The notes under the pieces: model-generated | Seen by the model: only the letters and a program-made list of their open reading frames with translations | Database searches by the model: none | Told to the model about the DNA's origin: nothing | Part shown: positions 5,930 through 23,476 of the stretch, one piece after another | How the letters are laid out: every line of letters begins with the position of its first letter | Position numbering within the stretch: the first letter of the stretch is position 1 | Made by a program: the position numbers and the translations under genes | Origin: a virus | Virus record (IMG/VR): IMGVR_UViG_3300009094_000074 | Location: 1-23,476 of that record | DNA length: 23,476 bases | Strand: one strand, 5' to 3'

Positions 5930-8900
5930 TCACTTGGGCGACACTCCGAACTCTCCCATGATCGGAGAGCCTTCTTCTTGAGAGAGACGCCTTCTCTCGA
6001 TGTACGAATACTGCTGCCACTGTACCGTCGCTCCTGGAGGGGTGAGTTGGCACAGGACATAGTCACCAAATTCAAGGGTAAGGATAGCATCCCTCTGGGT
6101 AGTATCTGCCCCATTCAGTAGAAAGTTAGTTATGCGGGCAGTGTTAGATGCGTAGCGAGCAAGCAGGCCATCCACGTATGCCTGCGCATCTGCATCTGAC
6201 ACAAGGGGGATGCCGTCAATCTGCAAAACGTACTCGCCGTCCTCCTCGATGAGGTCAAGATCCTCTGCGATGAACGTTACCTCATCCTCACGTGTACCCA
6301 CGACCTTGTTGTAGTAGAACGTATCTGTGTCTGACGTGTTCATTCCCTCGTACTGGACGCCAGTAGGACCAATGGTGAACTCCGGCGTCGTCACATCTTC
6401 TCTGTAGTCGTTGTCACGGAACGTCGGGTACCCTTCACGTGAGAAGAAAAACAATGAAGGTTCCGTCTCTGCGAAGAGAACTTCATCAAGGAGTTCCTGT
6501 GGGGGCAGTCCTGCGTATCTCGCAGGTACCATCGTCTTCGTTCCAGGATCGATCTGGTAGGGGAGAGAAAACTTCCCCATTGTGTTCAGGACGTTGACGA
6601 GGCGCTCGCCAGATAGTGACTCCTCTAACCCGTAGAACGCAGCGTTGTACCTTGCAAGCGCGCGATCTACGGTGAAGAATTTCTCGTAGATACCCAACCG
6701 TGCAATTCGCCCATCGAAGTAAGCACCTGCACTTCCAAGACCTGCGATCCACTGGTTCCTTCCAATAGCACAGGTGCCCGCGACAGCAGTAGCGTTCACG
6801 ATGCCAAGAGAAGACCCAACCTCAACTCCGTTGAGGTACACGAACATCTCTCCACCATCTGCTCGTGTAGCACAGACGTGGTACCAAGTCCCTACACTCG
6901 TGGTTCCAGCAAAGACAACTCCGTCTGCACCAAACTCATCTTCAATCTCCCAAGATACTCCTCCGCCTGCATCGATCCGGACAAACCCTGGAATGAAGTC
7001 AACTCCAGCCTTGGTTGTCTTCGGGAAAGAGAAGATGGTCATATCAGAGGAGAGGCTGTCGAGATTTACCCAGGCCTCGATGGTGATCTCCTCTGTGTCC
7101 ACGAGTTCGCCAGAATCAATCGTGAAGGTGGCGTACTCATTCTGCGCTTTTCTAAACCGCACACACGTAGCGTCATCTCCAAAGATTGGACCTTCTTCCC
7201 CAAGAAGTGGAGTGTTCTTGTAGGTACCAGAAGGCCCGGCGATACCTGTCAGGTCTGCACGTGTCTCGCGAGTACGCCACTTCTTGATTCTCTTCTTCTT
7301 CCCTTTCTTCGGCCCTTTCTTGTACTTGATTACCTTCGTGTGGGCAACCATCTTCGTGCCTCTTTGCTCGTCGAGGTTGTAGAGAACGAAAGGATCGTCT
7401 GCCTGCTGCAACTCATCGTACTCTACAACGTCAGGGAGAGAGTGAATGAAGTTCGACCTAGCGAAGAACTTGCGTCCATCCGTAGCACGCATTCTCGCTG
7501 TCATCTCCCCGATGCCTGAATCATCCCAGGTTGGTCCCCACGTGTCCGTGTACCCGTAGAAGACAGGGTAGGTCTTTCCATTTGTCTGAATCCTGTGCCA
7601 GATAGTCCTATTCTGTCGAACGAGTCCAGCCATGGGACCACCCAGAATATTTGCTGAATCGAATGCTGCTGTTTCCCCCGTGACTCCACCTGTGACGTTA
7701 TCTGTGCGTAGAGGCAGAACAGGTACTGCAGATTCACAGAAGATGCCATCGTCAAGCCAGAACGTCGTTGCAGCAGTTCCTGACAGGGATACTCTCACGC
7801 GAGCACGTGCTGTGTTCGCAGGTGCAGTCGCGATCAAGTAAATCCACCTGAAATCAGTACGTGCAGACCTTGGAGTGGAGAAGGTAGTGGAGAGAACTGT
7901 GTCTGCGGAATTGCGCCACTCGATACCGATCCGGATCTGGTCGAAGGCATCCCCCGACATAAGGATCGCAGCAAAGTAAGTGTTGCCTGCAATGAGGCCA
8001 GTGAAGGATGCGTTTGAGGGTGCCTGTGCGATGAACACACCTTGCCCAGAAGCTGCGCCATTCGTGACAACCTTCAGGGAACCTGTCCCATGCGCAGACC
8101 TCGTCGTGTCCTGTGTCGTCGTTGTTGTGCCCCCACCTGCAGACGAGATGCCGTTCTTGTTTGTCTCAAAATCTGAGTTCTCGATGATCTGGTGGATGAC
8201 CTTGTTGAGGCCTACCGTTTGGTAGACACTCGGCCGTGTCTCTGGCGTCACGTCTGCGAGCGTATGTCCGACACAATAAGCATCGTGGCGGACAACGTTT
8301 GTAAATGCTGACGCGTTCCTGTAGAGGCCAATCTTGTCTGCAATAGGAGGAACTGTTGCGTCACCCTTCACCATTGGAATCGTCTGGATGCCGGATTCCA
8401 GAGCAAAAGTCTTCCACTCCTCGCCCCATCTGCGCATCTGCACCATGATGAAGCCATCTTTCTTTGTTGACCACTTGATGATGTAGCGCAGATCGACCCA
8501 GGCGTCTGCCTCAAAGGGCAGCATTTCGTAGTCCTTGTTGGTACCTGCGTTCGTTCCGTTGTTTGCATCTGTCAGGGTCGGGAACTCTCCTGTGTCAAGT
8601 GAAAACATGTAGCGTGTCCGTGCTGCATTAACCTGAACACGTAGAGGGGCCTGCCCGAAGCGTGAGTCCCCGATGCAATGCTGCTGGTGGAAAATCTCCC
8701 AACCTGTCGGGTGGGTCCATGGCCCCTCAGGACTCCAGGAGATGAAGTACGCGATCACCTGGCCGTCTAGGTTGCCTGTTCCGAACCCACCGTTCGGGTT
8801 ACCTCGACGCACCTCACAGCGTTCTCCTGTGGATGTCGAGAACTGGTCTCCTGACCGAACAGTGAACTTACCACACTTGGTGCCGAGACGCTTGTTAGAG

Positions 8901-9280
8901 GAGTCAGTTGTGAACTGCGCAGAAGCAGAGAATGCCTCAATGAGTCCGTTCAATTCTGTCCACTCAGGTGCCACTCCCGTACCTGCGTTCTCGAAGTCTC
9001 CCCAGAACTCGAGGTACCTCATCGTCGGCATGTTCAGTGGATTAAGGAACCCGTCCTTATTCCGCAGTATGTAGTTGCCGACCGTGGCATCGAAGTCTGC
9101 GAGTTCAGAGTCACGCCCACCCTCAACACTCCAGTTCTGCAATCTGTCTGAAACGTCAACCCAGGACTTGTCTTGCACGTCCGGAGGGTCAAACGACACC
9201 CACAGAACATGGAGAGGGTTGATGGGCTGCTCTGTTACCTCGTCAGTATCTGTCGTCTGAGCAGTTGATGTGACCTGCAT
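5930..9280 (-). CDS. Tail-tip protein with inserted polysaccharide-lyase-like, CBM-like and LamG domains
   Basis: This 1116-residue protein is the longest in the window. The N-terminus (25-100) has the WVDVSDRLQNWSV...DGFLNPLN pattern of actinophage-type minor tail proteins. The tail fold appears to resume at about 545-615 (FYGYTDTWGPTW...) and again at 885-1116. Between these lie three insertions. Residues 103-345 resemble polysaccharide lyases: GERCEVR, then YFISWSPEGPW, IFHQQHC, PLRVQV, and W-DLRYIIKWS-KKDGFI-V. Residues 361-517 look like a beta-sandwich carbohydrate-binding module (NSDFE start, FWLDDG end). Residues 629-880 form a LamG/concanavalin-A-like domain (VLYNLDEQRGT, EAWVNL, GTWYHVCATRADGGEMFVYLNG, FDGRIARLGIY) interrupted by a Lys-rich stretch at 649-668. 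Its ATG abuts the preceding stop (TAGATG). It is the likely host-recognition and glycan-degrading component of the tail tip. Confidence 0.88.
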   Translation of the reverse strand: MQVTSTAQTTDTDEVTEQPINPLHVLWVSFDPPDVQDKSWVDVSDRLQNWSVEGGRDSELADFDATVGNYILRNKDGFLNPLNMPTMRYLEFWGDFENAGTGVAPEWTELNGLIEAFSASAQFTTDSSNKRLGTKCGKFTVRSGDQFSTSTGERCEVRRGNPNGGFGTGNLDGQVIAYFISWSPEGPWTHPTGWEIFHQQHCIGDSRFGQAPLRVQVNAARTRYMFSLDTGEFPTLTDANNGTNAGTNKDYEMLPFEADAWVDLRYIIKWSTKKDGFIMVQMRRWGEEWKTFALESGIQTIPMVKGDATVPPIADKIGLYRNASAFTNVVRHDAYCVGHTLADVTPETRPSVYQTVGLNKVIHQIIENSDFETNKNGISSAGGGTTTTTQDTTRSAHGTGSLKVVTNGAASGQGVFIAQAPSNASFTGLIAGNTYFAAILMSGDAFDQIRIGIEWRNSADTVLSTTFSTPRSARTDFRWIYLIATAPANTARARVRVSLSGTAATTFWLDDGIFCESAVPVLPLRTDNVTGGVTGETAAFDSANILGGPMAGLVRQNRTIWHRIQTNGKTYPVFYGYTDTWGPTWDDSGIGEMTARMRATDGRKFFARSNFIHSLPDVVEYDELQQADDPFVLYNLDEQRGTKMVAHTKVIKYKKGPKKGKKKRIKKWRTRETRADLTGIAGPSGTYKNTPLLGEEGPIFGDDATCVRFRKAQNEYATFTIDSGELVDTEEITIEAWVNLDSLSSDMTIFSFPKTTKAGVDFIPGFVRIDAGGGVSWEIEDEFGADGVVFAGTTSVGTWYHVCATRADGGEMFVYLNGVEVGSSLGIVNATAVAGTCAIGRNQWIAGLGSAGAYFDGRIARLGIYEKFFTVDRALARYNAAFYGLEESLSGERLVNVLNTMGKFSLPYQIDPGTKTMVPARYAGLPPQELLDEVLFAETEPSLFFFSREGYPTFRDNDYREDVTTPEFTIGPTGVQYEGMNTSDTDTFYYNKVVGTREDEVTFIAEDLDLIEEDGEYVLQIDGIPLVSDADAQAYVDGLLARYASNTARITNFLLNGADTTQRDAILTLEFGDYVLCQLTPPGATVQWQQYSYIERRRLSQEEGSPIMGEFGVSPK

Positions 9281-9895
9281 CTACGCAACCCTAACAGGTT
9301 TAATCGACAGCCATCTGTCAAACCAAGTACCCTGGGTACCTCCAGATACCCGATACTGGAGCTTGACAACTGCTGAAGCTGCAAGTCCAGTCTTCACAAC
9401 TTTCTTCATCCCAGCTGCCCTGTTCGTTGCTCTTGTCGTGAACCCATCAGCATCCGCTGTTGCTGCTGCACCAAACTTCGGAGTTACAAACGCGTCATTC
9501 CCTGCAGTTGCGTTGAAGTGCTGCGCTCCAAAGTCAACCTCGTAGTCTCCTCCGAGGGGCAGAGTGATCTGGGGACCGTTAGTTGCGAGATCCAAGTAGG
9601 TGTTAGTAGAGGATGTTTCAAGAGTAGCGATAATCGCGTACAGAGGAGGACCTCCAACGAACTCCCACTTGTAGGAGGATGCGGACGCAGACCTGTATAT
9701 GAGGTGCCACTTGATTCCGTTCGTTGCGTCAGCGACGTAGTAAACCTCCTGACCATCGAACGGAGATCCAGGCAGTGAAGATACTGTCTGAATAGATGCA
9801 CGGTCGATTCCCTGTTCCATGTACCCTAGCCGTGCTGCAGACACTGGCTTCGTTACATCATTGTCAACCCAGGTTTGCTGAGTGTAGGCTGGCAC
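9281..9895 (-). CDS. Minor tail protein
   Basis: This 204-residue protein lies between the tape measure and the large tail-tip gene. Residues 8-33 (TWVDNDVTKPVSAARLGYME) match the short N-terminal segment common to many phage tail or fibre proteins. Residues 40-86 (LPGSPFDGQEVYYV, WHLIYRS, YKWEFVGG) form a typical fibre beta segment, and residues 90-204 look like a jelly-roll head domain. The GTG start overlaps the tape-measure stop by one base (TAGTG). By position it is a tail-tip or short-fibre component. No catalytic residues are seen. A Dit-like role is an alternative but the pattern fits a fibre better. Confidence 0.78.
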   Translation of the reverse strand: MPAYTQQTWVDNDVTKPVSAARLGYMEQGIDRASIQTVSSLPGSPFDGQEVYYVADATNGIKWHLIYRSASASSYKWEFVGGPPLYAIIATLETSSTNTYLDLATNGPQITLPLGGDYEVDFGAQHFNATAGNDAFVTPKFGAAATADADGFTTRATNRAAGMKKVVKTGLAASAVVKLQYRVSGGTQGTWFDRWLSIKPVRVA

Positions 9896-12273
9896 TAGGC
9901 AGCTCCGTTCGACATCTCGTACCTGGTTTGACCCATGCGTACGAGCTTGTAGAGTTCGTCGGCAACATCGCGTGAACCCAATCCGATAATCGTTCCAACG
10001 TTGAGATGCACAGTGACTGGGTTATTCGCGGGTACAGACTGACGCAACGCTCCAACGCTCTGAGGTTGACGGGAGGGGGTCCCTGTGACGTGTTGGACCA
10101 TGTGTCGTACCTCGTGAGACAAAGAGCGTGGGATTGCTGCTGCACCCTTCGCAATACCTTCCGCGATGCCTTGAGAGATCGGCACGCCAACCTGGTCACG
10201 AAACACCTTCGACGGCGAATCAATCCCAAGACCCTTCTTCGCCCACGAAAGCGCTCCTTCTGCACCATCGACAATTGCTCCGCCCAACCTGCTCGCGAGG
10301 TCACCGATTCCTGAGATGATCCCATCGACAATCGCCTTGCCGAGTTGCATGCCATATCCGAGAAACAGTCCAACGAACCCTCTGATTACGTCGATGATGC
10401 CGTTGAACTTGTTAGAGATCATCGTCTTGATTGTCTCAATGACGGTTGAGGCAGCCTCTTTCACTCGGTTCCAAATCGTGCGCACCACCCCCACGACTGG
10501 AGAGAGCACTGTCTTGACGACACCGACGATGGCGCCAACAACGTCAGAGATGAATCCTTTGACTGCATTGAAGATGGAGACAGTCAGGTTGTAGATCGAG
10601 CGCCACTTGCGAATAATCGCTGCTGCGATGAGTGCAGTGCCGAGAGTCATGATGACTAGAAGTAGAGGCCACCACTTACGGAAGAACCCTGCGATCGCTG
10701 TGAAAATCCTTGTAGCGATGTTCTTGATCTGGTTGAAGTACTTGAACACGAGAGCAGGAAGGGCGAGTAGACCTCCTGAGAAGATAACAGCGAGCAGCAT
10801 CCAGTGGTCACGGATGAAGTTCACAGTCGCAAGGACAGAGGACTTCAGAACCTCCCATGTCCCTAGTACGATGTTCCTAAATGTCTCTGAGCGCTTCCAC
10901 AGCACGACAAGTGCAACACCAAGACCTACAAGTGCTGCAACAAGCAGGACAACAGGGTTCGCAGCCATTGCTGCATCAAGCAAGAACATTGCTGCTGCGT
11001 AGGCCTTCGTTGCAGTTGATACTGCCATCGTAATCGTCTTGTAGGTCACAAACGCGGCAGTGAGACCTGCAACAAGTGCCGTAAGGACCGGCACCCCTGT
11101 GATGAGGTTATAGATTGCCTCCACACCAGAAGAGATAGCAGAGAAGAAAGCGATAATCCTGTCAGGGTCAATCGAGGCAATAAACCGTGACATAGCGCGC
11201 ACAAGAGACTCTGCCGCTGGCAAAAGCGCTGTACCCAACTGAATCGCAAGCGTCTCTGCAGCAGATCCGAACGCCTGCAGCGCACCGTTAAAGCCTTTGG
11301 TGCGTGCCTCTGCAAACTGCTGCGCTTCTCCCCCCTTCGTGATTGCATCATGGAACTTGTTCCACCCGTCCGTACCTGCCCGCATTTGGATCCGCGCAGC
11401 ACGAATCGCGTCAGACCCGAAGATCGTATAGAGGGCAGCATTCCTCTGTTTCTGCGACATCCCGTCCATCGCACTATTCAGTTCGGTGATGATCTCAGGC
11501 ATGCTCTTCATGTTCCCTGAAGAGTCATAGACCTGAATACCGAGCTCTTTCATCAGATCAGATGCCTTCTGCGTGGGAGCAGTCAGACGGTTAATCATCG
11601 TCTTCAGGGACGTACCTGCATCAGACCCGACAACTCCTGCGTTCGCCATCAGACCTAGGGAGGTCGTCAGTTCGTCAATCGTGTGCCCCGTACCAGCGAA
11701 CTGTGCAGACGCCATCTGGAAACCGAGTGCCACGTCAGTCATGTCCGCAGTCGACTTGTTTGCAGTCGCCGTGAAGAGATCGGCAACAGTCGTCGCTTCC
11801 TTACCGTTCAGGGAGAACGCAGACAGCGCACGTGCGACAATCGTTGCCGAGTCTGCGAACCCCATGTTCGCTGCAAGACCCAGTTGCAGGGTCCCGCGGG
11901 TCGCACCGAGGATCTGGTTGACGGATAGACCACCTTTAGCGAGTTCCTGCATCGCGTCCGCTGCATCCTTCGCAGACACGTTCGGCAGTTTGAAATCTGC
12001 ACCAAGGGCAATCGCTTCCTTGTCGAGTGCGTTCATCTGGTCTGCAGTCGCGCCCGACACAGCCTGGAGGATGTTCATTGACTGCTGGAAGTTACCTGCA
12101 GCGCGAAGCGACACAATGCCGATACCAGTCACTGCGAGACCGATACCGGCAGCCGCACGTGTCACGAGGCCGCCCGTACGCAGCATGGACGCGTTCGCAA
12201 TCGCCATCGACCTGTAGAACCCAGAGGTGTCTGCAGTCAGGCGTGCTACGAGCTGGGCGACAGTGAGTGGCAT
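9895..12273 (-). CDS. Tape measure protein
   Basis: This 792-residue protein sets tail length and is threaded through the tail tube. Residues 5-60 are Ala-rich helix; residues about 60-330 carry the TP901-type minor-tail core (AAGNFQQSMNILQAVSGAT, AMQELAKGGLSVNQILG, AGVVGSDAGTSLKTMINRL). Hydrophobic membrane-type segments lie at about 395-465, 490-515 and 540-560, followed by helical repeats and a C-terminal Gly/Ser-rich region. At about 0.15 nm per residue it predicts a tail of roughly 120 nm. ATG directly abuts the TAG of the frameshifted chaperone product (TAGATG). Longest in the tube module and immediately downstream of gpG/gpGT, it fits the conserved siphovirus order. Confidence 0.95.
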   Translation of the reverse strand: MPLTVAQLVARLTADTSGFYRSMAIANASMLRTGGLVTRAAAGIGLAVTGIGIVSLRAAGNFQQSMNILQAVSGATADQMNALDKEAIALGADFKLPNVSAKDAADAMQELAKGGLSVNQILGATRGTLQLGLAANMGFADSATIVARALSAFSLNGKEATTVADLFTATANKSTADMTDVALGFQMASAQFAGTGHTIDELTTSLGLMANAGVVGSDAGTSLKTMINRLTAPTQKASDLMKELGIQVYDSSGNMKSMPEIITELNSAMDGMSQKQRNAALYTIFGSDAIRAARIQMRAGTDGWNKFHDAITKGGEAQQFAEARTKGFNGALQAFGSAAETLAIQLGTALLPAAESLVRAMSRFIASIDPDRIIAFFSAISSGVEAIYNLITGVPVLTALVAGLTAAFVTYKTITMAVSTATKAYAAAMFLLDAAMAANPVVLLVAALVGLGVALVVLWKRSETFRNIVLGTWEVLKSSVLATVNFIRDHWMLLAVIFSGGLLALPALVFKYFNQIKNIATRIFTAIAGFFRKWWPLLLVIMTLGTALIAAAIIRKWRSIYNLTVSIFNAVKGFISDVVGAIVGVVKTVLSPVVGVVRTIWNRVKEAASTVIETIKTMISNKFNGIIDVIRGFVGLFLGYGMQLGKAIVDGIISGIGDLASRLGGAIVDGAEGALSWAKKGLGIDSPSKVFRDQVGVPISQGIAEGIAKGAAAIPRSLSHEVRHMVQHVTGTPSRQPQSVGALRQSVPANNPVTVHLNVGTIIGLGSRDVADELYKLVRMGQTRYEMSNGAA

Positions 12274-12579
12274 CTACCTCTTGCGTCCGAAGAACCGATT
12301 CATTTTCTTCTGCTTCTTCTCTTCTGCTTGCCCCTCAGCGGACATAACAGCGATCACGTGGTTGTAGTACCAGACGGGTTTCTCGACTACGACCCACGGT
12401 GGGCAGCCAAATCGATCGGCTGCTCGCTGAAGAAGGAACCAGTCCGGGACGCGTCCTGCTCGTCCGTCGAATTGGAGGTACTTGGTGAGGTCCCGGACTT
12501 CTGAGGGTCCGGCATCAGGTCTTGGGAGATCCCTTGCATGATGGTGCCGAGAACCACCAGCGGCAACCTCTTGATCTCC
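12274..12579 (-). CDS. Tail assembly chaperone gpGT-like extension, read by -1 frameshift
   Basis: On the - strand the frame ending at TAG 12276-12274 is open back to a TGA at 12582-12580, entirely in the -1 frame relative to the gpG-like gene. It contains no ATG, GTG or TTG before a GTG at 12357, yet from 12498 on it encodes protein-like sequence with many aromatic residues (LTKYLQFDGRAGRVPDWFLL, CPPWVVV, PVWYYNHVIAVM) and a basic end (FFGRKR). Expression therefore most likely needs slippage from the upstream frame, as in lambda G/GT and most siphoviruses. No canonical XXXYYYZ heptamer is visible in the overlap; C-CCU at about 12507-12504 permits P-site re-pairing only. The extension is about 74 residues from the likely shift zone and abuts the tape measure. 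Confidence 0.78.
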   Translation of the reverse strand, partial: GDQEVAAGGSRHHHARDLPRPDAGPSEVRDLTKYLQFDGRAGRVPDWFLLQRAADRFGCPPWVVVEKPVWYYNHVIAVMSAEGQAEEKKQKKMNRFFGRKR

Positions 12580-12824
12580 TCACCGTTGCACGGAAGAGGG
12601 GTTCCATCCTCACGGAGAAGATCCCAATCGACAAGGATGGGCTCAAGAACGAGACCTGCAACGTCGCCCTCGAACCCACCCTCCATCGCATCTTTGATCT
12701 TGTCCGAGATCTCGAGAGTGAGTTCGCCAGGCTTGTACTCCACCCTGATCGGTTCATCCTCACCCTCGACTGGAATGTCAACTACTCGGTTGGCACCTTT
12801 CAGCTGGTTAACACGAAGCGGCAT
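12387..12824 (-). CDS. Tail assembly chaperone gpG-like
   Basis: This 145-residue zero-frame product precedes the tape measure and should coat it during tail assembly. It starts MPLRVNQLKGANRVVDIPVE with a strong aaaggagag ribosome site just upstream. Residues 1-100 form a compact, acidic alpha/beta-like domain (GEDEPIRVEYKPGELTLE, LVLEPILVDWDLLREDGTPL). The last 45 residues are Ser/Thr/Asp-rich and of low complexity, as expected where the same DNA is selected in the -1 frame. The gene lies between the 86-residue acidic gene and the tape measure, the standard chaperone position. Confidence 0.85.
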   Translation of the reverse strand: MPLRVNQLKGANRVVDIPVEGEDEPIRVEYKPGELTLEISDKIKDAMEGGFEGDVAGLVLEPILVDWDLLREDGTPLPCNGEEIKRLPLVVLGTIMQGISQDLMPDPQKSGTSPSTSNSTDEQDASRTGSFFSEQPIDLAAHRGS

Positions 12825-12842
12825 ATCTCTCCTTTGTTGAAA

Positions 12843-13103
12843 CTACCCCTCTGGAGGGGCCTCTGCAAGTTCGACAGCATCCGAAGCGAGTGCAGACGTG
12901 TCGTCCCTGTACGAGTCCTCAAGCGGCACTTCCTTGCTGTCGCTCTTCGCAAGCGTACGCCCGCGGAGGATGTGCTTGTCGATGAACTTCGGATCGTCCT
13001 CGACCCTCTGCGGACCTGGATCCTCTCGCGGGTTGTACTTCGGGTCCACGACTGGACCGGTAGCGGCCCATTCCTCAGCTGCCTTTGAGTTCTTATCAGC
13101 CAT
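12843..13103 (-). CDS. Small charged protein between major tail protein and chaperone
   Basis: This 86-residue hydrophilic protein (MADKNSKAAEEW...) is rich in Asp, Glu, Pro and Lys, with DPKYNPREDPGPQRVEDDP in the middle and no hydrophobic core; it may be disordered. A strong aaggaggg ribosome site precedes the ATG, and the gene tiles between its neighbours with gaps of 9 and 18 nt. Many siphoviruses have a small gene here, often of unknown role. A tail-tube accessory or chaperone helper is possible. Confidence 0.75.
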   Translation of the reverse strand: MADKNSKAAEEWAATGPVVDPKYNPREDPGPQRVEDDPKFIDKHILRGRTLAKSDSKEVPLEDSYRDDTSALASDAVELAEAPPEG

Positions 13104-13112
13104 GTCCCTCCT

Positions 13113-14099
13113 TTAGAGAGCCGAGACCTTGTTGACGACGTTGGTCGTGAAGGCCTTACCCCACGCACCGTCATGTACCATATCGTAGGTAATGTCGATC
13201 ACGTAGAGGCCTTCGTTCTCATCAAAGTCACCAACATCTGCGACCTTGACAGCGCAGTCCCACGTCCACGAGTACGGAACAGTCGCTGCACCTGCGAGCG
13301 TGGGTGATGTTGCCTTGATACGGAGGAACTTGGTCGTACCTCCACGCATATCGGTCAACCACGCCATGCCTGCAGCATCTGCCTCGAGGGTCAACGCGAC
13401 CTGTGCAGTCGGTTCAGTCTCAACATGCGCGGCGTAGGAGTTGTTCGCTGTGTTCAGCACCCAGACAGGAGCGTACCTGTCACCGAGGGTGAGTGTCGCC
13501 TCGATGCAGCGCGTGAGTTTCGTCGTCCCGAGACCTGCGGACGTCGTGTCGAGGTAGATGTCGATGTCCGTTGGGAGTACCGGAACCTGAGCAAGGGAGG
13601 TCGGACCGGCGGTCATCGTGATACCGTCCGAAATGCGCTGCCCGAATCCACCTCCGCCAATCGTCACACCGTCTCTGTTGAGGGTGATCTCGACTGCATT
13701 GATGAGGCCGTAGTTGAACTTGTGCGCCCTGACGACTCCACCGACCTCGATGGTGTACGTCTTCGGCGTGTCCTCTGCTGAGGTCGCCGGCGTGAAGGTC
13801 CACGTCTGCGCTGACGTGTCCGAGACAGAAGGTGCGGACGGCGCGACGATTGCTGACGCGAACGCATAGATCAGTTCGGAGTAGTCGCCAACACCATCGA
13901 GGTCGAACTCGACAAACTCCTTGCCGGGAGTCTCGATTGTGGCGAACTTGTTTCCGAACGCCCGAAATCGCTGCATGTCCACAGCGACTCCTGGAACGAA
14001 TCCGATGGAGTTGAGCTTCTTGTTGGCAGCGACGTTCGTGCCCGGCGTGGATTCGACACCGATCTGAACGCCCTGCGTCAGTGCTGATCGTTCAGCCAT
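13113..14099 (-). CDS. Major tail (tube) protein
   Basis: This 328-residue beta-rich protein would stack as hexameric rings to form the tail tube. It opens MAERSALTQGVQIGVESTPG, characteristic of tube proteins with an early GxESTPGT segment. Beta-strand stretches follow (TWTFTP, YTIEVGGVVRAHKFNYGLINAVEITLNR in parts), then the C-terminal SWTWDCAVKVADVGDFDENEG region. Ribosome site aggaggag stands just upstream. It follows the tail terminator and precedes the chaperones, the expected order. It is long enough for one extra domain beyond the minimal tube fold, although no separate Ig-like tail is obvious. Confidence 0.9.
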   Translation of the reverse strand: MAERSALTQGVQIGVESTPGTNVAANKKLNSIGFVPGVAVDMQRFRAFGNKFATIETPGKEFVEFDLDGVGDYSELIYAFASAIVAPSAPSVSDTSAQTWTFTPATSAEDTPKTYTIEVGGVVRAHKFNYGLINAVEITLNRDGVTIGGGGFGQRISDGITMTAGPTSLAQVPVLPTDIDIYLDTTSAGLGTTKLTRCIEATLTLGDRYAPVWVLNTANNSYAAHVETEPTAQVALTLEADAAGMAWLTDMRGGTTKFLRIKATSPTLAGAATVPYSWTWDCAVKVADVGDFDENEGLYVIDITYDMVHDGAWGKAFTTNVVNKVSAL

Positions 14100-16583: not shown

Positions 16584-17519
16584 CTACGGCGCCCTGAGCA
16601 CGGCGAACGGATAGCGCGAGGCTTCCGTGCCCTGCTCGTAGTTGATCGGGTTCGGAACCTGCCAGGCGAATCGCGCTACGACGCGCAGCGCGACCATATC
16701 CTGCTGTGGCAGGTTGTACTGGATGGCACCGAGGTTGTCCTGAATCACGGCCTGGTCGAGGACCTTGTACGTGATGTCTTGCCGGACAGCGAGGATGCCC
16801 TGAGAGAAGTCACCCACGAACATCTCTGCAGAACCTGAACCCGTAGGCCACAGGCCCGGCATGACGTACATGAGTGTCTCACCCTCGATTGAGCTGTTGG
16901 TTACATCAAGGAGACGCTGGCCCGTCGTGTCACGAGCGGAGCGCAGGCGCGCCTTGTAGGTTGTACGAGTGACGAACCCAGACGGGGCAAAACCATCCGC
17001 CTCGACAAGGGCCATCGTCTGGTTCAGGTCTTCCGCGATTCCACCCTGGGCTGCAGTTGCTGTGCCCCTGGTGTACGAGTTGCCCGCCGCGATTGCAGCC
17101 GTGACCACATCCGAAGGCCACGAGGAGGGCTTGTTCGTTCCGAAGAAGATGGCTGCATCGAGCGTGCGCCCAATCGCCTCTTCCAGCCTCGGACGAATCT
17201 CCGCCCAAACGTCGAAGGATGCATCATCGAGCACCGCCTCCGGGATGGGGACGATCGCTGCGATCTCTTCGGCGTTCAGGAACTTGTTGTCCCACGCCAT
17301 TTCAGTCGTCTGCTTCAGGCCGGTGTCACCGTTGACGAAGTAGGCAGTGGGCAGAGCGGCGAGTACTGGCATCCGCTGCTGGTTGCTTCCCATCGTCACT
17401 CGGCGGAACAGGCGAAGGGCAGCAGACTGATCTGCAACGTTCTGGATGATCTCGGACGAAACCTCTTCCGGGATCAGCGCAGAGACGTTGGAGCGTGAGA
17501 TGACGTTTGCGTATGGCAT
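16584..17519 (-). CDS. Major capsid protein, HK97 fold
   Basis: This 311-residue protein lacks a long N-terminal scaffold domain, consistent with the separate scaffold gene upstream. Features fit HK97-type capsids: [20 protein letters not shown] at residues 9-28, the [14 protein letters not shown] strand, a glycine-rich E-loop ([20 protein letters not shown]), the long spine helix region [28 protein letters not shown], and a C-terminal P-domain strand segment ([20 protein letters not shown]). The stop is doubled (TAGTAG). A ccaggagt ribosome site lies 8 nt ahead of ATG. By copy number this should be among the most heavily translated genes in the operon. Confidence 0.95.
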
Positions 17520-17536: not shown

Positions 17537-18115
17537 TTACGCCCTTCCTGAACCCGCTCGGATGAGCGCGTTCATGTCCGTTTCCTCACCAGTTTGACGA
17601 GTGCGGCCTGCCGACTGATCTGCGCCTCCTGCGGTCCTGCCGAGAAGGTACGGACGAGCCTTGACGAGTTCCTGAAGTGCTTCTGCGACTTGGTCCTCAT
17701 CCTCCGGGTCTTCGATCTTGTCCCAATCGAGCAGGCGCGCTGCGTCTGCACGGGCGTCTGGGTCAACACCGAGTTCGCCGGCGATGATTCGAGCCTGGAA
17801 CATGCGGTTCTTCTCAGCAAGGGCGTCTGCACGCTCCTGCAGTTTCTCCGCTCTGGTCTGGGCCTTCTCCAACTCGCTCTTGTCCTTCCCTTCAAGTTCC
17901 TCGACTTTGGCTTGAGCCTTCCGAAGTTCAGTGCGGTACTTCGCGGCTTCCTTTCGGGTTGCCTGAAGTTCCTTTTCCTTCGGATCGTCCTGCTGGTCAG
18001 GTTCGCCCTCCTGGGGCGCGGGAGGAGTGGGATCACCGGGATCTGGGTCTCCTCCACCATCTCCAGGATCACCAGGATCTGACTGGAAATGGATTGTGTG
18101 AAACGGATCGAGCAT
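17537..18115 (-). CDS. Capsid scaffolding protein
   Basis: This approximately 192-residue protein directs head assembly and is later removed. The frame extends to a GTG at 18121, but that GTG lies inside the Shine-Dalgarno (aaaggagag, 18129-18121), so the ATG at 18115 with 7 nt spacing is the true start. An acidic Gly/Pro/Asp-rich N-terminus (PGDPGDGGGDPDPGDP) leads into a long charged coiled coil (about residues 45-105, KEAAKYRTELRKAQAKVEEL), an alpha-helical ELGVDPDARADAARLLDWD region and a C-terminal tail. It directly precedes the major capsid gene (17-nt gap). No protease gene is seen near it, so removal by exit and not by cleavage is likely. Confidence 0.9.
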   Translation of the reverse strand: MLDPFHTIHFQSDPGDPGDGGGDPDPGDPTPPAPQEGEPDQQDDPKEKELQATRKEAAKYRTELRKAQAKVEELEGKDKSELEKAQTRAEKLQERADALAEKNRMFQARIIAGELGVDPDARADAARLLDWDKIEDPEDEDQVAEALQELVKARPYLLGRTAGGADQSAGRTRQTGEETDMNALIRAGSGRA

Positions 18116-18120
18116 TTGCA

Positions 18121-18129
18121 CTCTCCTTT
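18121..18129 (-). promoter_or_regulatory. Ribosome binding site that decides the scaffold start
   Basis: aaaggagag on the - strand lies 5 nt before the ATG at 18115 (7 nt from the AGGAG core) and overlaps the alternative GTG (18121-18119), excluding that GTG as a start. Confidence 0.75.
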
Positions 18130-18172: not shown

Positions 18173-18189
18173 TAGTAGAAACTCTACTA
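18173..18189 (-). terminator. Short AT-rich hairpin at the end of the 18187-18546 gene
   Basis: tagtaga (18173-18179) and tctacta (18183-18189) form a 7-bp stem with a 3-nt loop that includes the gene's own TAG stop. There is no U tract and the stem is weak, so it may be an attenuator or mRNA-processing site ahead of scaffold and capsid, or chance. The 72-nt gap around it is the largest in the head region. Confidence 0.25.
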
Positions 18190-18546
18190 AGAGGTCGCCT
18201 TGGTCACTGTCTTGCGGATGCGGAGTGTTCCACGCTGCACCTGTTGTCCTTTCGAGGAGGACGCAGGCATCACCTTCACGTCATACGCGAGTGCCTCATC
18301 TGTGATCGACGCTGTGTCTGCAGGAGAAAGGACAACCTGGAACTTCCCGTTCGGTTCATCCGTGACCGTGATACCTGACAGGCCTCCCGCAACATTCAGT
18401 CCCTTGCGGATCACAGCATCCGCGTCTAGATCATCAAGGGACCTCTTCGCCGTGAACCAGATCTTGTCACTCGCCTGAGAGAGTGCAATCGGCACATCAA
18501 GCTCGAAGATGTTGTCTGCACCCTTGTCTGCAACAATCGTCGCCAT
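18187..18546 (-). CDS. Small structural protein, baseplate/tail-like beta domain
   Basis: This 119-residue protein begins MATIVADKGADNIFELDVPI and carries IWFTAKRSLDDLDADAVIRK, VVLSPADTASITDEALAYDV and a final strand RGTLRIRKTV. The order of a strand, an FTxKxxxxDxDA-IxK segment, an L-P-ADT loop and a YDV strand resembles small phage proteins related to the N-terminal domain of BppU-type baseplate proteins. Its ATG precedes by 3 bases the stop of nothing else: it follows the repeat protein with a one-base overlap. Position before the scaffold gene is unusual for a tail component, so it may decorate the head or portal vertex. Confidence 0.7.
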   Translation of the reverse strand: MATIVADKGADNIFELDVPIALSQASDKIWFTAKRSLDDLDADAVIRKGLNVAGGLSGITVTDEPNGKFQVVLSPADTASITDEALAYDVKVMPASSSKGQQVQRGTLRIRKTVTKATS

Positions 18547-19763
18547 TACTGCACCACCTTCTTAATTGTCGCCTCAAGGTCTTCCCCTGTGACACCTTCA
18601 AGGGTGACCTTGCCAACACCAGCTTCGAGATCTCCTGCGATCCCAGAGTTCAGAGTCACCTTCACAAGTGTAGCCTCGAGGTCAACCTCACCTGCAGGAA
18701 TGACAATGATCTGACTCGACTGGAGATTCGCGTCGAAGCCTACGAGGACGTAGGCACCTGGATTCGCAGCGAGAATTCTCGCAGCAAGCACTCCTGCGTT
18801 GACACCTGTGACAACGTACACACCCGGTGCCGCATTGATGACTCGTCCCGCAACGACCTGTGCCTGTGAACCTGTGTAGAGGTACGACCCAGGTTGAGCG
18901 TTCAGTGTCCGTGTCGCAAGCAACGTCGCCAGGATACCAGAGAGGGAATAGGCACCTGGTTGTGCGTTGAGGAGCCTCGCTGCAAGTACTCCTGCTGCAA
19001 CTCCCGTGACCCCGTAGGCACCAGGCTGAGCGTCGAGGATGTAGTTGATCGCTGCCTGCGAGTAAACGAGTGTCGCATCTACTCCAGAGATCACGTAGAC
19101 GCCAGGCTGCGCATTGAGCATCCTAGCGGTCAGAAGAGATGCAGCTACTCCTGTCACGACGTACACCCCAGGTGCTGCATTGATGAACAGTCCTCGTGCA
19201 AGGATCGCAGCAGCGCCCGTCAACGCGTACGCTCCCGGATCTGCGGTCAGAACGCGCCCGACGACCAATCCCGCCTGTGTGCCTGTTACTGCGTAGACAC
19301 CAGGTGCTGCGTTGACGACCTTACCCGAAACAACAGAAGCAGCAACACCAGACACTGCGTAGGTTCCAGGCTGAGCATCGAGGAAGTAAGGCGGCTTGAG
19401 ATCTGCAACAAACCCTGTGACAACGTAGTTACCTGACTGGGCATTGATGAAGTACCCACGTGCAAGGGTCGCAGCAACCCCCGTGACTGCGTAGGTGCCA
19501 GGAACAGCGTTAACGACAAGGCCGCGTGCGAGTGTTGCAGCGAGACCTGTGACTCCATAGGACCCAGGCACAGCGTTCACCATGAGTCCCCTGACAAGTG
19601 ATGCAGCTACACCACTGACAGCATACGAACCAGGTTGTGCATCGAGCGTGTAGGCAGCTGCAGTAGGTCCTACAAGGTCTTCGTCAAACCAACCACTGCT
19701 ATCGAGGGTTTCATCAAACCAGCCACTCCCAGTGAGTTCTGGATCGAATAACCCGACAGCCAT
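18546..19763 (-). CDS. Repetitive surface protein with 14 tandem 22-residue repeats
   Basis: This 405-residue protein is built almost wholly of repeats. Residues 4-33 are three 10-residue units (GLFDPELTGS, GWFDETLDSS, GWFDEDLVGP). Residues 40-352 are 14 units of consensus LNAQPGxYxVTGVAAxLxAR, all 22 residues except unit 9 (27). Residues 360-405 hold three DLEAT-KVTL units. Conserved Pro-Gly-x-Tyr turns and alternating hydrophobic strands suggest a beta-solenoid or beads of beta-hairpins, possibly a fibre. There is no signal peptide or catalytic motif. The ATG overlaps the upstream stop (TAATG). Similar PG-Y-TG repeat proteins occur among phage structural genes; the role is unproven, with head fibre or decoration as my inference from its place between portal and scaffold. 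Confidence 0.82.
   Translation of the reverse strand: MAVGLFDPELTGSGWFDETLDSSGWFDEDLVGPTAAAYTLDAQPGSYAVSGVAASLVRGLMVNAVPGSYGVTGLAATLARGLVVNAVPGTYAVTGVAATLARGYFINAQSGNYVVTGFVADLKPPYFLDAQPGTYAVSGVAASVVSGKVVNAAPGVYAVTGTQAGLVVGRVLTADPGAYALTGAAAILARGLFINAAPGVYVVTGVAASLLTARMLNAQPGVYVISGVDATLVYSQAAINYILDAQPGAYGVTGVAAGVLAARLLNAQPGAYSLSGILATLLATRTLNAQPGSYLYTGSQAQVVAGRVINAAPGVYVVTGVNAGVLAARILAANPGAYVLVGFDANLQSSQIIVIPAGEVDLEATLVKVTLNSGIAGDLEAGVGKVTLEGVTGEDLEATIKKVVQ
18549..18692 (-). repeat. Three C-terminal DLEAT-type repeats
   Basis: Units VDLEATLVKVTL, DLEAGVGKVTL and DLEATIKKVV recur at about 17-18-residue spacing after the main array, a third repeat class in the same protein. Confidence 0.65.
18708..19646 (-). 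repeat. Array of 14 tandem repeats, 66-nt unit
   Basis: Fourteen consecutive coding units begin at residues 40, 62, 84, 106, 128, 150, 172, 194, 216, 243, 265, 287, 309 and 331. DNA identity between units is moderate while the protein pattern (A-PG-Y-x-TG-A) is kept, so the array is old and under selection at the protein level. Unit 9 is 15 nt longer. Confidence 0.85.
19665..19754 (-). repeat. Three 10-residue GWFDE-type repeats
   Basis: Residues 4-13, 14-23 and 24-33 of the repeat protein share G-[LW]-F-D-[PE]-x-L with an exact 30-nt period. Confidence 0.7.
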
Positions 19764-20662
19764 TACAGATCTTCAGTAGTGGCGTTCATATCCTCGTAGG
19801 TGTGAACTGCCGAGGTTCCGCCGTTGTAGCTCAACCCGATGAGGAGTCCTGCTGTTGTAGCGTCAAACGCTGCACTCGTCACGGTCAGAGCCTTCACTGC
19901 GTTCGTGAGGCCTGTCGTCTGCAGGTTCGTTGTCCAGTTCGCCTTGCCCCTCAGGACAGCAGACGCTCCGATGGCCGTGAACTTCACGTCAAGTTCGATC
20001 TCACCTCGATCCGCCGCTGCTGTACCCGCACCCCAGGTGAAGGTCAGACGTGCAGTGTCTGCTGTCGTACCTGCAGTCCCGACGCGCACAGTCAAGATCG
20101 GAGTTGCAGTACCTGCTGCCGTCTTCGAGATCATGAGGCGCCAGTGGAAGGTGCGCCCGATCCGCAGGGCCCCGATCCCAGTCAGCGGGAGTGCCGTGTT
20201 CGCAAGGTAGGTGTCTGACGCAAAGCCTGCTGCAGGAGGAGTGACGAGGAAACTCGTCCCGATAGGTGCAGACGGAGATGCTGCGAGTTTGAAGAAACCG
20301 ACACCTTCGATGTACTCAAGACACTCTCCAGGCGCAAGGTTCGCTGAGTGCAACTGGATGACGTTTGCGCCAAACGAGTTCGCGTCGATCTGCACAGTGA
20401 CCTGGCAAGAGAGGGAAGCGTCACGGTTACGGATTGTCATCCCTTTGACGTTCCTCACCTTCGAGGCACTCGTCGGTGCTGTGCAGATAACTGTCGTCGT
20501 CGCAGTGGTGATGAGCGTCGGAGTCGCGTCCGGATTCTCAGGAACAGGAGGGGCAGCATCCGAGGCATCCACATGCGACACATGGACATCAATCGTCGCT
20601 GCCGCACCTGTGATGACTTCAAGTTCATCTGGTGTGGTAGCGTGACCAATCAGATTAATCAC
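19763..20662 (-). CDS. Beta-rich structural protein, unknown
   Basis: This 299-residue, Thr/Ala/Ser-rich protein contains no catalytic motif. The GTG start has an agggggtg ribosome site 6 nt upstream and overlaps the upstream gene (GTGA). Residues 20-75 contain a strand-rich domain ending in TIRNRDASLSCQVTVQID, a form typical of phage structural proteins that align receptor or head contacts; residues 95-130 (PGECLEYIEGVGFFKLAA) and the C-terminal half (FHWRLMISKTAAGTATPILT, a GxxxTADTARLTFTW strand) look like two jelly-roll domains. Context suggests a head or portal-proximal fibre component. I do not recognise the family. Confidence 0.7.
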   Translation of the reverse strand: MINLIGHATTPDELEVITGAAATIDVHVSHVDASDAAPPVPENPDATPTLITTATTTVICTAPTSASKVRNVKGMTIRNRDASLSCQVTVQIDANSFGANVIQLHSANLAPGECLEYIEGVGFFKLAASPSAPIGTSFLVTPPAAGFASDTYLANTALPLTGIGALRIGRTFHWRLMISKTAAGTATPILTVRVGTAGTTADTARLTFTWGAGTAAADRGEIELDVKFTAIGASAVLRGKANWTTNLQTTGLTNAVKALTVTSAAFDATTAGLLIGLSYNGGTSAVHTYEDMNATTEDL

Positions 20663-21381
20663 CTGTACACCCCCTGCCTAATTGGAGATTTCGGAAATTG
20701 AGAGTAGTCGACTTCAACATACGGGATACCTGCTACAGCTGCCTCCTTGAACTTCAAGCCGTACGCGCCCCAGAAGTCAGAAAATGCCCACGTTCCAGCC
20801 ACACTTGCAGAACCAGCTGCCCCTGCGATCCTGTGAGAGGCAACGATGGTTGAGCCAGATGAAGCCTGCTCCCAGTCCTCGACAGAGGGAGAGGTGATCG
20901 TGTTCCCTGGACCGTTGCCTGCGAAAGAGTTGACGACTACCAGCTCGTTGTCGAAACCGGTTGTGTAGGAGATCGACCAGCCTGTTCCTGTACCAGTTGC
21001 AGAGGTGACGACTGCATCGAAGGAGGAAGCGTCGCCCCCGAGGAACGAGTAGCCTCCAGCCACCTTGTTGCCAACGTCGCCCCCTGTCCAGGTGAACGTC
21101 CAGATAGTGCCTGAAGAAATGCCCGCAGGAGCGTAGGCGTACGCGAACGCGAGGCGAAGATCCTGTGTGGCGTCTGGGCGTACCTGTGTGCGCGCCCAAG
21201 TCAGTCCTGGCCCGTTGTCCGTTACCGAGGTTAACGTGTCTGAAAAGAACCATGCTGCTGGCATGATGGCCCAGGCTCCTGCAGCTACCGCCACATTTGA
21301 CGTAAAGGTCATGGATGTATCTCCATAACCTGCCTCGATAGCTCGAGGGCCAAGAGACGCCTGGTCGACAGTCCATGTCAT
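20659..21381 (-). CDS. Jelly-roll-like structural protein, unknown
   Basis: This 240-residue protein is rich in Gly, Ser, Thr and aromatics. It has strand patterns such as GDTSMTFTSNVAVAAGAWAI, the turn TSVTDNGPGLTWAR, LRLAFAYAYAP, and IWTFTWTGGDVGNKVAGGYS, like the beta-sandwich proteins found in many phage tail or decoration modules. The C-terminus (PYVEVDYSQFPKSPIRQGVYR) is distinct and basic. ATG abuts the GH16 stop (TAGATG), so its translation is coupled to that gene. It lacks a signal peptide, unlike its neighbour. It may be a surface-binding partner of the GH16 enzyme, but that rests on proximity alone. Confidence 0.7.
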   Translation of the reverse strand: MTWTVDQASLGPRAIEAGYGDTSMTFTSNVAVAAGAWAIMPAAWFFSDTLTSVTDNGPGLTWARTQVRPDATQDLRLAFAYAYAPAGISSGTIWTFTWTGGDVGNKVAGGYSFLGGDASSFDAVVTSATGTGTGWSISYTTGFDNELVVVNSFAGNGPGNTITSPSVEDWEQASSGSTIVASHRIAGAAGSASVAGTWAFSDFWGAYGLKFKEAAVAGIPYVEVDYSQFPKSPIRQGVYR

Positions 21382-22380
21382 CTATTTCTGCCATACCCGC
21401 ACCCAGTCGACCTCAGTTACGAGGGGATCTGGCGTCGAGGCATCACATGAGTTCGTAGAGTCCCAGCCGCAGGCCTGCATCGTCAGGGACATGACCATCT
21501 GTTGGTCGCCTGAGTCGAAGAGTGGTTGCGGAGCGCCCTGCTGTACGTCGTCTACGTACCACGTCACGTCAGTAGCCGTCCACTTCACAGAGAATGTATG
21601 CCACGTACCTGCAAGGATTCCAGGGTTCGTGAAGACAGACCTTGTGGTGTCAGGCGTCCCGCAGACATCCCCCGTGTTCCGATGCTGCGTCCCATAGAAC
21701 TGCGTCCTCTCGTCGCCCTGGTACTCCATGATGTCCAGTTCAAAGTTGAGATCTCGACCTGTGCAGGACGGGTAATTAGGCCACTCAGCCTGCTGACGCG
21801 CGAGGAGCCAGAACGCAGGCCATGACCCCTTCGCGTCTGTGAACTTCATCCGTGCCTCGAAATACCCGAACATCCAGGACTTCTTCGCTGTCTCAAGACC
21901 CCAGTAAGGTCCCGTCGAGATCGACTGGTCTCCGTAGTAAGGTCGTGCGTTTGAGATTTTCACAGTGCCATTTGAGACAACAACAGCACCAGGACGAGGC
22001 TCATCCTCCCAGAACTCCTTCGGGCTCCAAACAGTGGTATCGAGCGCCGTGCCATCGAACTCGTCTGCAAACACCTTCGCATAGCCTTGACCTGCGATAG
22101 GGGCAGGCTCGATCTGTGAGGTCGTCGTGCCTGCTGTCGTTGTGTCTGGAACCGTTGTCGTGACAGAATGCGTCTGCCCCGCAAACGTGTACGTCTGCGC
22201 AGGTGCTGTGAACGTCTTGACCTTGGTCGCTGAGGTGTACGTTTTCGCTGGAACTGTTACCGTCCGGTTCGAGTCCGTGAACGTAAACGAAAACACAGTG
22301 CCACCTGCAGCAAGTACTCCTACAGAGATGCCACAGACGAGAAGAACAACGAGTGCAAAGATGGAGAGGATCTTCTTCAC
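21382..22380 (-). CDS. Secreted GH16-family glycoside hydrolase
   Basis: This 332-residue protein has an N-terminal export signal (KK, hydrophobic core about 5-22, VLAAGG cleavage region), a Thr/Pro-rich linker with PAKTYT and PAQTYT repeats (40-92), and a GH16 jelly-roll domain (100-332). The catalytic ELDIME segment supplies the family E-x-D-x-x-E motif (E214 nucleophile, D216, E219 acid/base). Supporting motifs are FADEFDGT-LD-TVW near the domain start, YFEARMKF, SWPAFWLL, GTQHRN, WHTFSVKWT-DVTWYVDD and the closing VDWVRVW strand. Family members cut beta-1,3/1,4-glucans, galactans or related polymers; the substrate is not readable here. The GTG start overlaps the upstream gene (GTGA). A secretion signal on a phage-encoded enzyme in the head gene block is unusual. 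Confidence 0.93.
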   Translation of the reverse strand: MKKILSIFALVVLLVCGISVGVLAAGGTVFSFTFTDSNRTVTVPAKTYTSATKVKTFTAPAQTYTFAGQTHSVTTTVPDTTTAGTTTSQIEPAPIAGQGYAKVFADEFDGTALDTTVWSPKEFWEDEPRPGAVVVSNGTVKISNARPYYGDQSISTGPYWGLETAKKSWMFGYFEARMKFTDAKGSWPAFWLLARQQAEWPNYPSCTGRDLNFELDIMEYQGDERTQFYGTQHRNTGDVCGTPDTTRSVFTNPGILAGTWHTFSVKWTATDVTWYVDDVQQGAPQPLFDSGDQQMVMSLTMQACGWDSTNSCDASTPDPLVTEVDWVRVWQK

Positions 22381-22571
22381 AGAGCAGTCCCCCGCGAATT
22401 GTACACACCTGGTTCTGCGTTCCCCTCGAAGTGCCTACGCCCGCACACTCTGCAATAGCGGACAGTGAGACTCTCCGTCAGCTTTTCCACCCTGTCGAGA
22501 TTCTCAGGCTTCGAGCAGCAGACGAAGATGAGGTTGCCTGCGACGATTGTTGTCTCGTTAGCTTCGTCCAT
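22377..22571 (-). CDS. Small Cys-rich protein, possible zinc-binding
   Basis: This 64-residue protein has CC at 18-19, CxxC at 40-43 (YCRVCGRRH) and H47, a spacing that could hold one zinc ion. The ATG overlaps the upstream TAA (TAATG), and its TGA overlaps the GH16 GTG (GTGA), so it is tightly coupled on both sides. The end (NAEPGVYNSRGTAL) is polar. No membrane segment. Function unknown; it may be a small structural or regulatory partner in this block. Confidence 0.7.
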   Translation of the reverse strand: MDEANETTIVAGNLIFVCCSKPENLDRVEKLTESLTVRYCRVCGRRHFEGNAEPGVYNSRGTAL

Positions 22572-23002
22572 TACGCGAGGGTGAAGATCGAGCCCGTGGT
22601 GTCAGAGTTGTTCGGTTTCCACGAGAACGTCTCTCCGATCTGCAGCGTGATCGCAGACCCGTAATCCCACCATGCGATCAGTGGGTCTGCAGGAGACGTC
22701 TGCGTGTCGTTGTACATATCGACGTAGCGGAACGGCCCGATAGTGCCGCCTGCAGCAGTCCACACGACCTTCGTACCTGTGCAGGTTGCCGTACCTGAAG
22801 CCTCAGCCCACGTGTTCTGCGTGTCCTCTCCACCTGCCGTGTACCCGTTGCCTGCCGAGATCTCAGTCAGGTCCGACTTGATTGTGTTCGCTGCAGTCGG
22901 CGCTGTGTTCGTCAGCAGGACTTTGAAGGTATCCGTGTTGCAGTTGTGCTTCGCGAGACCCAACTGCTCCACAAAATCGTTGTGCTTGTTGTATGCAGCC
23001 AC
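22571..23002 (-). CDS. Phage structural protein, beta-rich
   Basis: This 143-residue protein has the pattern of a widespread small phage virion protein: DTFKVLLTNTAP near the N-terminus, DLTEISAGNGYTAGG, VVWTAAGGTIGPFRYVDMYN and a terminal WWDYGSAITLQIGETFSW-FTL. Such genes often sit beside portal or capsid genes and are thought to be virion or tail-collar components. GTG start with an aaggagg ribosome site 8 nt upstream. Confidence 0.78.
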   Translation of the reverse strand: MAAYNKHNDFVEQLGLAKHNCNTDTFKVLLTNTAPTAANTIKSDLTEISAGNGYTAGGEDTQNTWAEASGTATCTGTKVVWTAAGGTIGPFRYVDMYNDTQTSPADPLIAWWDYGSAITLQIGETFSWKPNNSDTTGSIFTLA

Positions 23003-23014
23003 TACCTATCCTCC

Positions 23015-23476
23015 TTAGCTCGGTACGCCCTGTCTCGACCGTCCTTGGTCACCAGTTGGTGTAGGCCTCATCTGCTGGGCCAGTTCAGCCTCCTGTTTCG
23101 CCTTCACCTGCGCCTCAGAATCTGCCTCTGCGATAAACTGAACGATCTCCTCCTCCGAGTACCCGAGTTCACGCAGGATCTGCGACCGCGGTACCCCAAC
23201 TGCCTTCTTCTTCACTGCAGTGTCAGCGAGTTCCGCTTCTGACCTCGGGGTCGCATCCCGCCAGAGGGAGTTGAGAACGAGACCATCAGCAACCCCTGAG
23301 TCGAGGCGCATAGCGAACGTCATTACGTCTTCCCAGATGTTTCCCCACCCAACCTGGCGATTAGAGATCTTCGTGATGAATCTCCCTTCTGCTGACTTGA
23401 TCGCCTCGCCAGATGGGAAGTCGCCCTGCGTGATGAAGAAGTAATGCAGAGGTGTGCCTGTCACGCGTGAGGCCGA
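23015..23476 (-). CDS. Portal protein, C-terminal part (cut by window edge)
   Basis: The frame is open to the right edge, so only the last ~153 residues are present. The visible start ASRVTGTPLHYF, then DFPSGEAIKSAEGRFITKIS and WGNIWEDVMTFAMRL match the region of SPP1/HK97-type portals after the clip, where SG-A and a long helix follow. The tail is a charged, Gln/Glu-rich helix (YSEEEIVQFIAEADSEAQVK) with a polar end. The portal forms the dodecameric DNA-packaging vertex. It is the first gene of the late block visible here; terminase genes should lie beyond the edge. Confidence 0.85.
   Translation of the reverse strand, partial: SASRVTGTPLHYFFITQGDFPSGEAIKSAEGRFITKISNRQVGWGNIWEDVMTFAMRLDSGVADGLVLNSLWRDATPRSEAELADTAVKKKAVGVPRSQILRELGYSEEEIVQFIAEADSEAQVKAKQEAELAQQMRPTPTGDQGRSRQGVPS

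Follow-up and report, generated by a model that had tools for sequence, protein, structure and literature searches.

Phage depolymerases are usually regarded as virion parts or as enzymes released at lysis. A glycanase gene in the head-gene block of a phage known from metagenomes only therefore raises the question of why its product should start with an export signal and where it would act. The window that we analysed (23,476 nucleotides; IMG/VR record IMGVR_UViG_3300009094_000074) is part of a siphophage-like genome with the C-terminus of the portal, the scaffold, the major capsid protein (MCP), the tape measure, further tail genes and an endolysin, and with a DNA polymerase on the opposite strand from the head and tail genes. 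The glycanase, termed SP-GH16 here, consists from N- to C-terminus of an export signal, a Thr-rich linker and a domain of glycoside hydrolase family 16 (GH16). The features referred to below are as follows; L numbers denote the loci compared.

21382 to 22380, minus strand: SP-GH16 gene, GTG start, 332 aa (Pfam PF00722, PDB matches, AF2/Foldseek)
22309 to 22380, minus strand: signal peptide, residues 1-24, cleavage predicted between VLA and AGG (sequence, rule-based scan with controls)
22108 to 22308, minus strand: Thr/Val/Pro-rich linker, residues 25-91 (sequence)
21385 to 22107, minus strand: GH16 catalytic domain, residues 92-332 (Pfam, alignment, AF2, Foldseek)
21724 to 21741, minus strand: catalytic motif ELDIME, with E214, D216 and E219 (alignment of 13 sequences)
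23015 to 23476, minus strand: C-terminal part of the portal (phrog_104, E 8e-27)
22571 to 23002, minus strand: phrog_644-family protein, upstream edge of the module (PHROG, E 3e-14)
22377 to 22571, minus strand: small CxxC (zinc-ribbon-like) module protein (similar proteins in L011, L135, L194 and L195)
20659 to 21381, minus strand: hypA, predicted jelly-roll-like, without a signal peptide (fold predicted from sequence)
19763 to 20662, minus strand: hypB, module anchor (54% identical in L009; weak tail-fibre PHROG match, E 0.03)
18546 to 19763, minus strand: hypC, with repeats of about 20 aa, xAxPGxYxVTGxxAxL (sequence)
18187 to 18546, minus strand: phrog_1084-family small protein, downstream edge of the module (PHROG, E 9e-8)
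17537 to 18121, minus strand: scaffold (phrog_2303, E 3e-13)
16584 to 17519, minus strand: MCP (PF05065, 107 bits)

The family, the predicted fold and the intact catalytic residues of SP-GH16 are established. The Pfam profile Glyco_hydro_16 (PF00722) matched at 55.2 bits (E 7.8e-15; cut-off 22 bits), and of the 30 PDB sequences matching at E<=1e-3, almost every one was a GH16 enzyme, laminarinases and beta-1,3-glucanases among them. The intact ExDxxE motif claimed in the initial annotation is present in its beta-bulge form as ELDIME, with the three acids invariant across 13 phage GH16 domains. A full-length AF2 model built from a shallow set of three sequences was discarded (pLDDT 40) in favour of a model of the domain alone from the 13 phage sequences (pLDDT 84.5). 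This model has the beta-jelly-roll fold of GH16 members and retrieved laminarinases with Foldseek (E 3e-16, probability 1.00, TM about 0.75), those of Thermotoga and Nocardiopsis being the top structural neighbours. GH16 enzymes act on many different substrates, and while laminarinases are nearest to SP-GH16, the E-values are close for several substrates. The laminarinases of Thermotoga maritima (3azx) and Nocardiopsis (2hyk) share its fold, ExDxxE site and secreted-enzyme architecture but are only 21-28% identical, and SP-GH16 differs from them in being encoded in a phage head operon.

The N-terminus, MKKILSIFALVVLLVCGISVGVLA followed by AGG, has a basic n-region, a hydrophobic core of roughly 20 residues and an AXA-like site, and was called as a type I signal by a rule of our own rather than by SignalP. 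Four textbook Sec signals all passed this rule, as did just 7 of 754 cross-supported ORFs of related loci, three of these seven being GH16s; the export signal proposed in the initial annotation is thus borne out by the rule-based scan. A lipoprotein reading was rejected: the sole N-terminal cysteine (C16) is preceded by LLV, which is not a lipobox.

Retention of this signal could be followed through the relatives of the enzyme, as all four members of the nearest group (the window, L009, L010a and L092) encode one despite 28-62% divergence. The GH16 of L009 is 63% identical over its full length, signal included, is accompanied by the hypB homologue and lies upstream of TerL; the TerL, portal and MCP of L009 have no significant similarity to those of the window's virus. 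The first GH16 of L010 (L010a) is 72% identical in the enzyme domain, combines a different signal with a fn3-like region (assigned from reading the sequence), Pro-rich linkers and a C-terminal extension, and lies between an MCP without significant similarity to the window MCP and the head-tail adaptor. In L092, a 38%-identical GH16 with a signal and with Ig-like and TSP3 regions is flanked by the genes of the terminase and of a portal/head-tail protein. L010a and L092 have linkers unrelated to that of SP-GH16, and the four phages place the gene at four sites (portal/scaffold, upstream of terminase, MCP/head-tail adaptor, terminase/portal). These comparisons indicate that the GH16 module has moved between phages with unrelated head genes and that a signal was retained. 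The GH16 domains of the window, L009 and L010 form one clade (support 100/99); on a broader GH16 tree, whose deep branches are not resolved, proteins with signal peptides occur in scattered positions. The GH16s of L095-L104 and L109-L115 were left aside as too divergent to bear on SP-GH16, and a match in MT838766.1 (L005, 'Bacteriophage sp.') was rejected as a fragment of a Bacteroides-type gene cluster; there, the GH16 gene is followed by two glycoside-hydrolase-like genes in an arrangement resembling a Bacteroides polysaccharide-utilisation fragment.

The enzyme itself is under purifying selection, since dN for the GH16 domain is about 0.22 whereas dS is either saturated or 1.8. Cysteines 206, 240, 304 and 312 of mature SP-GH16 are common to L009 and L010, and no cysteines occur in the MCP, scaffold, tape measure, hypA or hypC. 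Two disulfides in the GH16 domain would be consistent with these cysteines and would fit folding outside the cytoplasm. Cytoplasmic enzymes of any kind are released at lysis, so a conserved signal is sensible only if the enzyme is needed outside the cell before lysis or must fold there.

Placement of the gene between portal and scaffold, as initially annotated, was confirmed by PHROG matches, though six further genes share the interval and SP-GH16 adjoins neither landmark. At its start, 4 bases are shared with the upstream gene, and its stop codon directly adjoins the ATG of the next, indicating a compact operon. A separate contig of the same virus (L008; 99.8% identity, 13 mismatches in 6,503 bases) has the order TerL-portal-phrog_644-CxxC-GH16-hypA-hypB-hypC-phrog_1084-scaffold-MCP, and an assembly artefact is therefore unlikely. 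Related phages of Arthrobacter, Microbacterium and Rhodococcus encode a MuF-like protein between portal and scaffold; no MuF-like minor capsid protein was found in this interval of the window (18187-23002). Among the closest MCP relatives, the interval is short or filled by variable jelly-roll- or repeat-like proteins, often with the phrog_1084 protein last, and thus resembles a site into which an adsorption-type module inserts. The phrog_1084 protein preceding the scaffold is conserved in L011, L012, L013, L014, L017, L018, L023 and L026, phrog_644-family proteins occur in phages of several morphologies, and homologues of hypB are found on more than 100 viral contigs. Proteins related to hypC are present in L011, L116, L117, L194 and L195, while hypA gave no family matches in Pfam or PHROG. 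From these features, we infer an adsorption/depolymerase role for the module as a whole (phrog_644, CxxC, enzyme, hypA, hypB, hypC and phrog_1084). No RNA families or tRNAs were found. The stretches scanned around the module contained neither DNA tandem repeats, the hypC repeats included, nor sigma-70 promoter-like sites, and promoters thus lend no support to any expression timing.

Exchange within this slot is seen in L011, a close relative (MCP 92%, portal 73%, TerL 83% and phrog_644 87% identical). Its DNA aligns with L008 at 75% as far as L008 base 5907, where phrog_644 ends, and the alignment resumes at 8828 with hypC; between these points GH16, hypA and hypB have given way to two proteins, the first of 251 aa with a signal peptide and a DUF1996 domain (30.7 bits; cut-off 27 bits), the second of 308 aa. 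Signals are also present in the DUF1996 relatives of L105 and L106. The Manatee Spring podovirus L195 (MW202742.1) preserves the order phrog_644, CxxC, enzyme, and then, further on, hypC-like repeats and head genes, with a gene annotated as pectate-lyase-like (NCBIfam PelZ, E 1e-19) and without a signal in the slot; the beta-helix protein of L014 likewise lacks one. In the region 1360-3353 of L195, the phrog_644 protein next to the pectate-lyase-like gene is annotated as a 'general glycosylation pathway protein', which is probably wrong. The slot contents of L011, L195 and L014 lead us to conclude that it holds polysaccharide-active or surface-type proteins that are exported in some lineages only; export is not essential to the slot. 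A survey of hypB neighbourhoods, which includes spurious as well as real ORFs and from which we draw no statistic, found most loci to be without a signal-peptide protein nearby, the candidates being PKD plus beta-helix (L133), fn3 (L131) and Ig (L139) proteins. In L139, a jelly-roll-like protein adjoining hypB (8874-10700) has an apparent signal peptide of its own, and exported versions of virion-type domains may exist. SP-GH16 would thus be part of an exchangeable, adsorption-like module whose enzyme slot often appears to be exported.

The initial annotation had envisaged a secreted enzyme acting outside the cell, encoded by a lone gene in the head block. Secreted action is the best-supported reading, given the signal in all four members of the nearest group, the DUF1996 swap and the signal-less state of virion-like GH16s; the lone gene has given way to a variable slot in an exchangeable multi-gene module, the enzyme of which is not always exported. 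We consider it reasonably probable that SP-GH16 is an exported laminarinase-like endo-glycanase that acts on a surface or matrix glycan before lysis and occupies the enzyme slot of a mobile module.

The steps that we infer, from export in vivo, signal cleavage and late timing to disulfides, substrate and benefit, would run as follows. A laminarinase-like endo-glycanase would be made late, alongside the head proteins, and exported by the host Sec pathway while the cell is still intact. The signal would be removed outside the membrane, where SP-GH16 would fold, probably with two disulfides, and, before lysis, would cleave a beta-linked glycan on the cell surface or in the matrix around it. The phage would probably benefit from clearance of exopolysaccharide, so that progeny spread, and from stripping of its own adsorption glycan, so that the dying cell and its debris capture fewer progeny. 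Both are favoured over lysis support or host feeding because the co-located genes look adsorption-like. A more specific version is possible but tentative: the exchangeable late-operon module may pair adsorption proteins with a dedicated exported enzyme (GH16, DUF1996 or others) that, before lysis, strips the dying cell and its neighbours of the glycan receptor used by the phage or of matrix, as a counterpart of receptor-destroying enzymes among bacterial viruses.

Alternatively, the hydrophobic N-terminus may be an uncleaved membrane or virion anchor, which would hold the GH16 at the host membrane or in particles as a depolymerase. The module otherwise looks virion-related (hypB has its weak tail-fibre match), other phages carry GH16 domains within large minor tail proteins, and a core of about 20 residues is long for a cleaved signal. 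We nevertheless regard an anchor as unlikely. In the window, L010, L092 and L105, an AXA-like site comes directly after the core, linkers typical of secreted enzymes are present in L010 (Pro-rich) and L092 (Ig-like/TSP3), and the cysteines of SP-GH16 contrast with the cysteine-free MCP, scaffold and tape measure. Virion-like GH16s, moreover, are without signals: the second GH16 of L010 (L010b, fused to another N-terminal domain), that of L094 and a 941-aa Curtobacterium phage minor tail protein. SP-GH16 is a stand-alone protein of 332 aa with neither a tail domain nor a tail PHROG match, and so does not resemble a virion depolymerase or tailspike. The Curtobacterium phage tail proteins are similar to it in having the GH16 domain encoded near packaging genes, but differ in size, in being tail proteins and in the absence of an export signal. 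The two GH16 genes of L010 lie at 9656-11377 and 12522-13886, with epimerase-, methyltransferase- and glycosyltransferase-like genes upstream.

A quite improbable alternative is that SP-GH16 is cargo, an auxiliary metabolic gene whose exported product digests environmental beta-glucan and feeds the host during infection or lysogeny. GH16 genes of uncultivated soil phages have been reported as auxiliary carbohydrate genes for carbon degradation (PMC6460857, PMC10127799), in accounts that, in the parts available to us, do not mention an export signal or a head-operon slot, and enzymatic activity has been shown for a chitosanase of a soil virus (PMC9485262). Against this reading, SP-GH16 is embedded in a tightly packed head operon and in an adsorption-like module, we found no genes for transport or catabolism next to it, and the window genes scanned included no identified integrase. 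It is also exchanged for a DUF1996 protein, which to our knowledge is not a catabolic enzyme.

Signal-peptide lytic enzymes are known from phages. Kayvirus Tgl, a lysis-module enzyme that cuts peptidoglycan (PMC7150955), and Lys44 of Oenococcus phage fOg44 (PMC6116005) both have a typical N-terminal signal peptide, as does SP-GH16, and are exported by the host. By analogy with such secreted endolysins, SP-GH16 could support lysis by weakening an envelope polymer other than peptidoglycan, which we judge very improbable: Tgl and Lys44 are lysis enzymes, while SP-GH16 is a head-operon protein with GH16 as its only enzyme domain, about 17 kb from the endolysin gene (4141-4866) and with adsorption-like genomic partners. 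We know of no GH16 acting on peptidoglycan. Beside the endolysin gene, the window also encodes a collagen-like protein with an N-terminal transmembrane segment (5003-5635, minus strand); its PHROG matches point to a tail fibre, but it may instead function in lysis or at the membrane. Finally, recent capture of a bacterial secreted GH16, with the signal as a leftover without a role in infection, is scarcely credible even though similar laminarinases are secreted bacterial enzymes, as the signal is kept over 28-37% divergence in three phage backgrounds, the domain is under purifying selection, gene and genome GC are equal (56.2% both) and a search of genome contigs for a bacterial donor gave one match, at 26%, and no close homologue.

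The preferred reading, of an exported enzyme in a mobile module, has a functional parallel in superinfection-exclusion proteins such as the T5 lipoprotein Llp, which are described as keeping phages from adsorbing to infected cells and to fragments of lysed ones (PMC9586334). Like the proposed SP-GH16, Llp is a phage protein at the cell surface that targets the phage's own receptor; its target, however, is a protein receptor, which it blocks, and it is described as an early protein, whereas SP-GH16 would destroy a glycan and probably act late. Phage GH16s and signal-peptide phage enzymes are already known, while the present module and the combination appear to be a new variation on them; searches confined to an open-access library gave no description of an exported GH16 in an exchangeable head-operon slot. 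A signal-peptide enzyme within a module bounded by phrog_644 and phrog_1084 provides a search marker for further cases. If our reading is correct, some phages act on extracellular polysaccharide in a host that is still living, which would be relevant to the spread of environmental phages through biofilms and to the ways in which they escape loss on debris.
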